A DNA stretch of 64,000 nt, taken from assembly GCF_001507535.1 (NCBI RefSeq), contig NZ_LQBN01000001.1, forward strand, positions 496,001 through 560,000, read 5' to 3'. Under the pieces are notes generated by a model. That model made no database searches and was not told the DNA's origin. It was given only the letters and a program-made list of their open reading frames with translations. The position numbers were made by a program, and so were the translations under genes. The DNA comes from Thiomicrospira sp. WB1 (GTDB lineage Bacteria > Pseudomonadota > Gammaproteobacteria > Thiomicrospirales > Thiomicrospiraceae). Below, in pieces: positions 53,791 to 62,740 of this stretch; the first letter of the stretch is position 1, and the number at the start of each line of letters is the position of its first letter.

Positions 53791-56721
53791 ATGGTGGTTC
53801 GGTTATTTTTTCTGACCGCAATGCTGTTGTTACCTAAAATCCTTATGGCAAGTGTTGGGACCTTTGCACTTGTGACTGGGGATGTCGTGGTTGAACGTGG
53901 TCAAAACAGTTTGGTCGCGCAGACGGGGATGTCTTTGCAGCAGAAAGATTTTGTGGTCACCGACTCAGGCGGACGGGCGCAAATCCGGTTTAATGATGAT
54001 TCTGTGATTACGCTTAATGGTCAGACCCGTTTTGGAATCGAATCGTTTTTATTTGAAGAAACAGATCGCTCGGACACAGCAACGTTTAATGTTGTAAAAG
54101 GTGCTTTTAAAGCAATTACCGGTCAGATCGGCAAGCGTTCTCCAGAACGCTTCAAGGTTAAGACCCGTACGGCGACGATAGGGATTCGGGGCACGGTCTT
54201 TCTAGGAAAAATTTGGCCAGATCGCGAAATGTTTGCCACGTTAGATGGCCAAATCTTTGTGACAGAAAATCAGACTGGAGGTATTGTAGAAATACCGGCC
54301 GGACAGTACGTAGAAGTCATGCCGGGGCTGCCCCCGCAGCCGCCACAGCCGCTTGATGATGCGGTGCTTGATGACATCAATTCGGAAGATCCACCTCCGC
54401 CTGGCGATGATGCGTCGGCTGGTGACCCGAATAATGCCAACAATGATCAGACTGAGACATCACCTGTTCAAACAGCCGAAACCTCAGGCGAGGGTCAGTC
54501 TGCCGTGGGTGACTCTGTAGGCGAACCGCCTTTGCCTGATGATTCTTTGCATGCGTCGGAACAGGAGACCGTACCGACTTTGCCTGTGTTAACTGGTCAG
54601 CTGGTCGAGCCTGATGTGGCAGATGAGGCGCAACAGGCCAAAACCGAAGAGACCCCAAAAGTTGATGAGCCAACGACTCCTCCTGATGGCTTTAACGAAA
54701 ATCAGGGGGAATGGATGCTTTCAGAAGAAAGTAATGTTTGGACTTGGCAGGCCTACCCGAGACCTGATATGCCCACAATTCCTGAATCGGGTTACAACTT
54801 CAACCAGGGTGAATGGCAGTTTAATGAAGAGGCTTGGGTGTATGAGTGGGAGGCCTACCCGAGACCTGATATGCCCACAATTCCTGAATCGGGTTACAAC
54901 TTCAACCAGGGTGAATGGCAGTTTAATGAAGAGGCTTGGGCATACGAGTGGTTTGCTTACCCGCCTCCTGCCCCAGAACCTGAGCCAGAGCCAGAACCAG
55001 AGCCAGAACCAGAACCAGAGCCAGAACCAGAACCAGAACCAGAGCCAGAACCTAATGCAGAGCGAGAACAATCCATGCAAGGGGTTTTGGTTCAAACCAT
55101 TGAAGGCTCTGACTTTGATACGGTTGCGAAGCACTTAGATCTTGGCTATCAATTGGTTGCTAATACATTGAAAGACGGAACCAGTGGAGAAGGGTCGACG
55201 ATTCCTTTTGAAAGTATCGTCGACGGAACAACCTCTAATATAGAATTCACAAGAAACTGGTCCTTGTCTCTGGACGAGGCGTCCTCTTCATACACAGCGT
55301 GGGCGTCTGAAGACACCGAAAGTATGGATTTGTACTTTTTTGATGGCGAAACCGCCCAAACCGGTGCTCAAATCACTGTTTATGCTGATTCAAAGCAAGA
55401 ATTTTTTGTAGCGGATTATAGCTATTCAGATGGCATGACGATTCAATATTCCGAAGCGTTCGGCCAGACGTTGGCTTACGCACATAAACCTGCCAGCGAC
55501 ATTGTTCGTTATCAAGACCCTGTGACTGAAAAATATCTGTATATGAATTACGAAAATGACCAGTTGATGAATTTTGAGCTGGTTGACTTTGATCAGGTGT
55601 CACTACGCTATGGGGAGGTGTTTTATGATGCTTCCTCCACAGGATTGATTCCCATTGATATGAATAAAAAAGGGTTCGATTATTCAGATTTCAGTTATGA
55701 AACGGAGCAATACACCAAACTGAATTATTTAGACAGCGAGCATGCAGGGCTGGTTTATGGCAGTGAGGCACAGGGCATTATTGCGCTCAGCGAAAATGAA
55801 ACGTTGAATAAAACGGATGTGTTTTCAGGGTTTAAAGACACAGAATACAGTCCTGCTGCCAATACGGATAATTCACCAAATTTGGAGCTAAGTGGGTTGA
55901 TGCACAGTCGTTTAGCGGATGATTCGGGTGGAGCTTTACATTTTGATATGGATAAAAGCGATGGTCGAGTTTGGAGCACGAACATCGTGATTAAAGATAC
56001 CCAGGGCGCCGAAGTGTTTACCTATGTTATGAATGATGATGGGGATTACTCTGAGGGGGCTTTTATACATGATGATTTATTCCTCAGCGCAACCCAGGCT
56101 TCCTTGGAAGACGATTTAGGGGCGACGTTTGACGCTTCGGTTGATGCTTGGATTGCGGCATTGGATGATCAGGCAATCATGGATAATGAATACGTGTCCT
56201 GGGGCTATTGGGGGAGCGGAGAGGCAACCGATGGTCAAGCCAATCGTGATGCGGTCAAACCGAGTTTGTGGGTCGCGGGCAAACAATGGAGTGAGGCGGC
56301 TACTTATTTAAATGATCTGGCCTCGGATGTAAGTTATACCTATACCGGGACGATCAAAGGAATGACCACCGACTCGGATAATCTTGTTTATCCGATCGAT
56401 GAAGGAGGCACGGTGAATATTGGTTTTGATTTCGGGCCCTCGGGAGATGCCTTTACCAGTGCTCAACTTGAGTTCAACTCCAATAATCAGAATTGGAGTT
56501 TGAACTTGGATTCTGCACCAGGAACGTTAACGGTTACATCGGGTGATCAGGCTTTGTTTGAAGGCTCTTTGGTCGGTGATGTTGATGCCACATCTGGCGC
56601 GACCGGGGATTTAAAAGGCTTGTTTTATGGAAGTGAGGCCGAGGCAGTGGGCGGTCGTTTTAAAGCCGAGCACCCCGGGTTATATCTTGAAGCAATGGGT
56701 GTGTTCGAGGGTAAACGATAA
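53791..56721 (+). CDS. FecR-domain protein with C-terminal TbpB-like barrel: predicted Slam/type XI secretion cargo
   Basis: A 976-residue exported protein. The signal peptide (about 1-20) has no lipobox cysteine. A FecR domain follows (about 30-150: QKDFVVTDSGGRAQIRFNDDSVITL, then ERFKVKTRTATIGIRGTVF). After an acidic low-complexity linker come three G-Y-N-x-N-Q-G-E-W repeats (about 298-388), the last two identical 34-mers, then 13 Glu-Pro units. A large unassigned region includes YVSWGYW, and the C-terminus ends GATGDLKGLFYGSEAEAVGGRF, the pattern of the TbpB C-lobe barrel and related transferrin-binding-like proteins. Such barrels are the recognition module of Slam/DUF560 cargo, and a Slam-like gene follows two bases later. 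AAGGG precedes ATG 53791. GC is lower than in the flanking genes. Confidence 0.72.
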   Translation: MVVRLFFLTAMLLLPKILMASVGTFALVTGDVVVERGQNSLVAQTGMSLQQKDFVVTDSGGRAQIRFNDDSVITLNGQTRFGIESFLFEETDRSDTATFNVVKGAFKAITGQIGKRSPERFKVKTRTATIGIRGTVFLGKIWPDREMFATLDGQIFVTENQTGGIVEIPAGQYVEVMPGLPPQPPQPLDDAVLDDINSEDPPPPGDDASAGDPNNANNDQTETSPVQTAETSGEGQSAVGDSVGEPPLPDDSLHASEQETVPTLPVLTGQLVEPDVADEAQQAKTEETPKVDEPTTPPDGFNENQGEWMLSEESNVWTWQAYPRPDMPTIPESGYNFNQGEWQFNEEAWVYEWEAYPRPDMPTIPESGYNFNQGEWQFNEEAWAYEWFAYPPPAPEPEPEPEPEPEPEPEPEPEPEPEPEPNAEREQSMQGVLVQTIEGSDFDTVAKHLDLGYQLVANTLKDGTSGEGSTIPFESIVDGTTSNIEFTRNWSLSLDEASSSYTAWASEDTESMDLYFFDGETAQTGAQITVYADSKQEFFVADYSYSDGMTIQYSEAFGQTLAYAHKPASDIVRYQDPVTEKYLYMNYENDQLMNFELVDFDQVSLRYGEVFYDASSTGLIPIDMNKKGFDYSDFSYETEQYTKLNYLDSEHAGLVYGSEAQGIIALSENETLNKTDVFSGFKDTEYSPAANTDNSPNLELSGLMHSRLADDSGGALHFDMDKSDGRVWSTNIVIKDTQGAEVFTYVMNDDGDYSEGAFIHDDLFLSATQASLEDDLGATFDASVDAWIAALDDQAIMDNEYVSWGYWGSGEATDGQANRDAVKPSLWVAGKQWSEAATYLNDLASDVSYTYTGTIKGMTTDSDNLVYPIDEGGTVNIGFDFGPSGDAFTSAQLEFNSNNQNWSLNLDSAPGTLTVTSGDQALFEGSLVGDVDATSGATGDLKGLFYGSEAEAVGGRFKAEHPGLYLEAMGVFEGKR
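54751..54954 (+). repeat. Tandem 102-bp repeat, two copies
   Basis: Two nearly identical 102-bp units (54751-54852 and 54853-54954), each coding 34 residues starting AYPRPDMPTIPESGYN or its close variant. A diverged third unit precedes them. Recent duplication is likely, and copy number may vary between strains. Confidence 0.92.
54976..55053 (+). repeat. Glu-Pro hexanucleotide repeat
   Basis: Thirteen consecutive Glu-Pro codon pairs built from GAGCCA/GAACCA. As in TonB, such stretches form a stiff rod; the 6-bp unit allows in-frame length variation. Confidence 0.92.

Positions 56722-62740: not shown

Follow-up and report, generated by a model that had tools for sequence, protein, structure and literature searches.

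Signalling from the cell surface to cyclases of the inner membrane is poorly understood, NsrA-CyaK of Sinorhizobium meliloti being a case with genetic evidence: NsrA is required for signal-dependent synthesis of cyclic AMP (cAMP), the CHASE2 cyclases of this organism raise cAMP once NsrA perceives a plant protein (PMC7529298; PMC13001267), and CyaD1 without its CHASE2 domain produces cAMP constitutively (PMC5498481). The gene nsrA, whose outer-membrane-associated product is annotated as a FecR-domain protein, lies directly upstream of cyaK. Here we describe a four-gene operon in a 64,000-nucleotide stretch of Thiomicrospira sp. WB1 (contig NZ_LQBN01000001.1, positions 496,001 to 560,000 of the forward strand; hereafter the window) in which, as in NsrA-CyaK/CyaD, a FecR-domain protein is encoded beside a CHASE2 cyclase, an arrangement shared with a congener (locus L181) and with plasmids of Paracoccus aminophilus (pAMI5, L203) and Shinella (L205). 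Unlike the operon, NsrA is a single chain of 1197 amino acids (aa) in which FecR and tetratricopeptide repeats (TPR) are joined to a C-terminal region with a predicted barrel. Neither a Slam-like translocon nor a TbpB-type barrel was found in NsrA-CyaK, and the NsrA barrel gave no match with our outer-membrane protein (OMP) profile that would make it a DUF560 homologue. By this comparison, the operon resembles a split version of NsrA-CyaK.

Similar components occur in other described systems. A Campylobacterota cluster reported in 2022 combines a CHASE2 adenylate cyclase, a cAMP phosphodiesterase, a FecR-domain outer membrane protein and a TPR protein, for which one pathway was proposed; as far as that description goes, the Thiomicrospira operon has the same four components, and in the brief account given there the TPR protein is not called DUF560, nor the FecR protein a barrel-bearing cargo (PMC9239204). 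As in type XI secretion systems (T11SS; DUF560/Slam, HrpB, NilB), an OMP with TPR and a beta-barrel adjoins a cargo that ends in a TbpB-type barrel (PMC8406197, PMC12282271), and the cargo is non-lipidated, as in TXISS-1B (PMC8406197). Unlike those systems, the operon adds an N-terminal FecR domain on the cargo and a CHASE2 cyclase linked to it; the main texts of PMC8406197 and PMC12282271 contain no mention of 'FecR' or 'cyclase'. The LapA/MpIBP adhesins are similar in that a module at the N-terminus keeps an exported protein at an outer-membrane pore (a kinship seen in family profiles, NF033682 and PDB 5ix9), but they use type I export, whereas the window cargo has no RTX repeats, no LapG site and a different putative export route. 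In a LysM-FecR operon of Burkholderia and Pseudomonas, a FecR protein is likewise encoded next to a CHASE2 sensor, but with a histidine kinase as output and with no translocon or barrel cargo described (PMC5192318).

On balance, we favour reading the Thiomicrospira operon as an envelope-spanning sensor built on a type XI (DUF560/Slam-like) translocon. A Sec signal peptide would take the FecR-barrel protein into the periplasm, where the TPR/14-strand OMP would recognise the TbpB-type C-terminal barrel and pass it to the surface, perhaps to meet a ligand. The N-terminal FecR domain, kin of the LapA/MpIBP pore-retention module, would remain in the periplasm, with a Pro-Glu linker spanning between it and the surface barrel. 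FecR would then act on the adenylate cyclase of the inner membrane by regulating its periplasmic CHASE2 domain, such that the state of the surface or envelope sets cAMP, and the last enzyme of the operon would clear cAMP and cyclic di-GMP (c-di-GMP). The author of an earlier note on this DNA knew of no described type XI system that has a FecR effector domain and a built-in cyclase; this stands for the type XI connection, in that no description linking FecR/CHASE2 clusters to type XI was found in the open-access literature searched, but not for the parts, since non-lipidated type XI cargo is known (PMC8406197), a cluster of CHASE2 cyclase, phosphodiesterase, FecR and TPR proteins has been noted in Campylobacterota (PMC9239204) and FecR/CHASE2 cAMP signalling has been established genetically in S. 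meliloti.

Organisation and conservation of the operon

Four open reading frames (ORFs), all on the + strand, span window positions 53791-62740, with intergenic gaps of 2, 8 and 18 bp in gene order, as tightly spaced as the earlier note had described. Their features are as follows (window coordinates, strand, description):

53791..56721, +, cargo/sensor protein P0001, 976 aa: signal peptide, FecR domain, Pro-Glu linker and repeats, variable middle, predicted C-terminal TbpB-type barrel
53953..54213, +, FecR domain, aa 55-141 of the cargo (Pfam PF04773, E 1.2e-13)
54967..55062, +, Pro-Glu repeat linker, aa 393-424 of the cargo (read from the sequence)
56188..56718, +, predicted C-terminal barrel of TbpB/fHbp/NHBA fold, aa 800-976 of the cargo (AlphaFold and structure comparison)
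56724..58136, +, outer-membrane TPR/beta-barrel protein P0002, 470 aa, divergent DUF560/Slam (type XI) relative by profile
56847..57239, +, periplasmic TPR domain of the OMP, aa 42-172 (Pfam TPR_19, 2e-9; TPR_Slam, E 1.7e-4, sub-threshold; AlphaFold helices 42-169)
57243..58133, +, predicted beta-barrel of the OMP, aa 174-470 (AlphaFold, pLDDT 91, 14 long strands)
58145..60304, +, CHASE2 class III adenylate cyclase, 719 aa, GTG start (Pfam and catalytic motifs)
58193..59218, +, periplasmic CHASE2 sensor domain, aa 17-358 of the cyclase (PF05226, E 5e-67)
59507..60043, +, cyclase catalytic domain, aa 455-633 (Guanylate_cyc PF00211, E 5.6e-22)
60323..62740, +, metallo-beta-lactamase (MBL)/class-II-phosphodiesterase-like, GAF and HD-GYP fusion, 805 aa (PDEase_II 1.2e-10, GAF 1.2e-13, HD_5 9e-34)

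An in-frame TTG lies at 53785, just 5' of the cargo ORF start at 53791. The operon is flanked upstream by a divergent gene for a DUF2189 membrane protein (52684-53502) and downstream by an opposing gene (63115-63561). All four genes and both flanks are retained in the congener (L181, genome G388), identifying the operon as a real inherited unit rather than a chance arrangement, with identities to the window of 84% for the cyclase, 79% for the phosphodiesterase, 67% for the OMP and 47% for the cargo. No promoter signal rose above shuffled expectation.

An outer-membrane protein related to Slam translocons

Profile comparisons identify P0002 as a divergent relative of DUF560/Slam, outside Pfam family PF04575. 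The profile of its family retrieves Pfam-certified SlipAM proteins (E 7e-116 to 3e-8) and aligns over its full length with SlipAM sets in profile-profile comparison (hhalign, 100%, E 7.5e-54, 399 columns), while the window OMP's own clade, compared in the same way with the highest-scoring Slams, gave 99.3% and E 2e-20. Of the 60 aligned OMP relatives, among which are a few certified SlipAM members, 39 matched SlipAM. Such end-to-end alignment with bona fide DUF560/Slam proteins bears out the earlier description of the 470-residue protein as Slam/DUF560-like. No Slam structure was among the PDB matches listed for the OMP.

A cargo with a predicted TbpB-type barrel

The cargo joins the FecR domain found by Pfam to a C-terminus that we predict, with moderate confidence, to be an eight-stranded barrel of the TbpB/fHbp/NHBA type; the combination had been proposed in the earlier note, and its barrel indeed lies where residues 850-976 had been named, but extends further, from about 800 to 976. 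The C-terminal 176 residues were modelled by AlphaFold with a pLDDT of about 63-92, mostly 70-92 (51 aligned sequences). In VIA-align, this model matched NHBA (6cuj) with Z 13.5 and a root-mean-square deviation of 2.1 angstrom over 130 residues, followed by fHbp (Z about 11), HpuA and TbpB (Z 9.8) and hemophilin HphA (Z 9.3). Some unrelated small barrels rank just behind (Z about 10), and the fold alone is therefore no proof. Matches to Pfam TbpB_B_D provide sequence evidence that is independent of the fold: the ortholog in L181 scores 23 bits and the cargo of a second congener, L184, scores 34 bits, above the cut-off of 26. TbpB, HpuA, fHbp and hemophilin-type proteins have been named as Slam/T11SS-dependent or homologous cargo (PMC8406197); the match to NHBA is one of fold only and carries no claim that NHBA is such a cargo. 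Neither a C-terminus of another fold nor membership of the OMP in a different TPR-porin family, which the earlier note had named as outcomes that would count against it, was found.

P0001 contains zero cysteines and therefore no lipobox, in agreement with the earlier statement that it is not a lipoprotein. Its middle (aa 426-790), folded only jointly with the barrel, has low AlphaFold confidence. A PE/QPE repeat is also present in the L181 ortholog. Further repeats, W-rich and based on GYNFNQGEWQF, occupy window positions 54700-54970, with the same repeat type kept in the congener. At other loci, FecR cargos carry three to five successive TbpB-type barrels (L135 5665-10881, L144 10245-14405, L131 10053-13370).

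A probably periplasmic FecR domain

Several lines of evidence suggest that the FecR domain of the cargo probably stays in the periplasm. Its family is related to the retention module of LapA, with 21 of 26 members matching NF033682 (retention_LapA, best E 5.5e-10), and the family profile matches the N-terminal domain of an RTX adhesin (PDB 5ix9, E 1.2e-6) with the first half of the domain aligned. Several relatives carry a LysM-like domain ahead of FecR (Pfam E 0.002-0.005, below cut-off; profile against LysM structures, E 5e-4). Between the window and its congener, FecR is conserved (77% identity) nearly as strongly as CHASE2 (82%), while the barrel (55%) and the middle of the cargo (42%) diverge. 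FecR and CHASE2 genes also pair in systems that lack this translocon, namely NsrA-CyaK and the LysM-FecR operons with a CHASE2 kinase.

Cyclase and phosphodiesterase

Pfam domains and motifs agree with the earlier note on both remaining genes. In the cyclase, the class III catalytic motifs FFSDIRSFT, KFIGD and DYTCIGDAVNLASR are intact, and the Lys/Thr positions point to adenylate rather than guanylate specificity. The fusion protein contains HAHLDH, HDIGK and HHEKLNGKGYP, making hydrolysis of both cAMP and c-di-GMP a plausible prediction. Split or partial forms of this fusion occur at related loci, as GAF-HD-GYP in L034 and L244 and as a separate MBL gene in L034. The WB1 genome also encodes a second CHASE2 cyclase, of 608 aa (L240 5566-8092; G000:C1 about 279565-282091). 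The gene divergent from it encodes a CRP/FNR-family protein of 223 aa, possibly a cAMP receptor, in which a cNMP-binding domain and the motif GEMGLITGSARAA are present.

Recurrence in other genomes

Of 143 genomes of the same class, 35 encode members of the OMP family (E <= 1e-25), the window's own included. Excluding that genome, a CHASE2 gene lies within 10 kb of 13 of the 46 OMP places, in 10 genomes, compared with 0.77 places expected under uniform placement and never more than 7 in 200,000 simulations. A FecR protein is encoded within 500 bp of 121 of 132 distinct OMP genes, a figure that describes this OMP branch rather than all DUF560, and that is favoured by the roughly 80 loci (L101-L180) drawn from a scan seeded with FecR-linked OMPs. 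Among complete FecR neighbours of OMP genes, 78 of 105 have the barrel. Both the link of FecR with the translocon and the link with CHASE2 hold across many genomes; a survey of such gene neighbourhoods had been proposed in the earlier note.

The order OMP, FecR, CHASE2 cyclase recurs in consecutive genes on the alphaproteobacterial plasmids of P. aminophilus and Shinella. At two further loci (L189 3505-10045, L190 6681-13022), the OMP-FecR pair stands beside a CHASE2 hybrid histidine kinase of 1243-1308 aa, with HisKA, HATPase, receiver and Hpt domains, instead of a cyclase. Beside OMP-FecR, the periplasmic CHASE2 part is therefore constant while the output domain is exchanged.

Variants of the arrangement were also encountered. 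Two congeners carry two tandem pairs of OMP and FecR/TbpB-barrel genes followed by a single CHASE2 adenylate cyclase (L184 8527-16122, L185 8293-15924), and one cargo of these duplications exceeds the Pfam TbpB_B_D cut-off. Within one genus (L063, L065, L066, L067), Pfam-certified DUF560 genes each have a CHASE2 gene about 100 bp downstream, and in L067 the ORF upstream of the DUF560 gene matches the cargo C-terminus. On the Shinella plasmid (L205 9038-15868), genes for NHLP bacteriocin export and for a cyclic-nucleotide-binding protein come after those for OMP, FecR and cyclase.

Weighing the alternatives

A number of observations count against a sensor built on a translocon. P0001 alone matches the NF033682 retention module weakly (E 1e-3), lacks the LysM-like domain of its relatives and scores under the Pfam TbpB_B_D cut-off of 26 (aa 930-976, E 9e-4, 20.1 bits); by inspection, its residues 1-250 hold no AA pair that could serve as a di-alanine LapG site. 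PF04575 matches neither P0002 nor any other protein of the genome. There is no CRP-type operator upstream of the operon, and window-wide matches are at chance level. Across loci, no barrel was detectable in 27 of the 105 complete FecR neighbours, among them the ones next to CHASE2 kinases; joint action of OMP and FecR may thus not require that a barrel be exported. Of the 86 OMP loci flanked by 4 kb or more on each side, only 28 have CHASE2 within 8 kb. The idea that CHASE2 proteins are generally accompanied by FecR was weakened, with FecR within 1.5 kb at only 4 of the 30 top CHASE2 loci. The WB1 genome does encode a LapG-like Peptidase_C93 (L256; G000:C4:144382-144690), whose substrate is probably elsewhere because the cargo shows no LapG site.

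These points bear on how far the FecR protein travels. It might not cross the outer membrane at all, if the OMP barrel itself perceives the signal, the FecR protein relays it to CHASE2 from a wholly periplasmic position and the TbpB-like barrel serves as a ligand or docking domain in the periplasm. The FecR partners in L189-L191, which have no detectable barrel while the order OMP-FecR-CHASE2 is still kept, would suit such a receptor complex, as would NsrA, a single chain that unites FecR and TPR with a predicted barrel and has no cargo, and the systems that pair FecR and CHASE2 without such an OMP (PMC5192318). We nevertheless consider this unlikely, given that most complete FecR neighbours hold the barrel type that directs proteins to DUF560 translocons and that barrel and middle evolve faster than FecR, as exposed regions would. 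At the other extreme, the whole FecR-barrel protein could be exported to the surface or medium by ordinary type XI secretion, with FecR as an effector or anchor and the cyclase merely regulating expression or co-transcribed. TXISS-1B does export non-lipidated, single-barrel cargo (PMC8406197), and over half of the OMP-FecR loci lack a nearby CHASE2 gene. Yet FecR adjoins CHASE2 even where type XI genes are absent, and this, the retention-module homology, the LysM-like N-termini of relatives, and a FecR conservation on a par with that of CHASE2 all place FecR in the periplasm; full export therefore appears doubtful to us, and a little less probable again than a purely periplasmic relay.

That the OMP is instead a TPR porin of the exopolysaccharide type, acting like BcsC, PelB or PgaA beside an unrelated FecR protein, strikes us as very improbable. 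BcsC and PelB do lead its Foldseek matches on overall architecture, and PF04575 also includes some PgaA homologues (PMC8406197), but neither a glycosyltransferase nor a polymer synthase is encoded in the operon, the barrel is predicted to have 14 strands, and in the PDB profile search the OMP aligned with BcsC only in the TPRs, whereas its profile aligns with Slams over the full length. The interpretation given in the earlier note, in which the FecR/CHASE2 pair senses the state of the surface protein or envelope and sets cAMP while the last enzyme resets cAMP and c-di-GMP, is partly supported overall.

Implications

Returning to the envelope-spanning sensor, a bolder form of it is one that we advance tentatively: a type XI translocon may have become an outer-membrane receptor, with the cargo stalled half-way by a LapA-like FecR plug and never released, and with the plug reading the state of the exposed barrel and passing it to CHASE2 cyclases or histidine kinases. 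By analogy, the NsrA chain, in which FecR, TPR and a predicted barrel are fused, offers a Rosetta-like hint of such a half-exported sensor. The operon suggests a common design for signalling from the surface to the inner membrane, with CHASE2 enzymes receiving input from a pore for protein display and a half-exported sensor, and it would connect type XI secretion and LapA-style retention with FecR proteins and with CHASE2 signalling, four topics that have been treated separately. It would also provide a candidate function for a large DUF560 branch of environmental bacteria. The bolder form, if true, would make stalled secretion a general route by which signals cross the outer membrane in proteobacteria.

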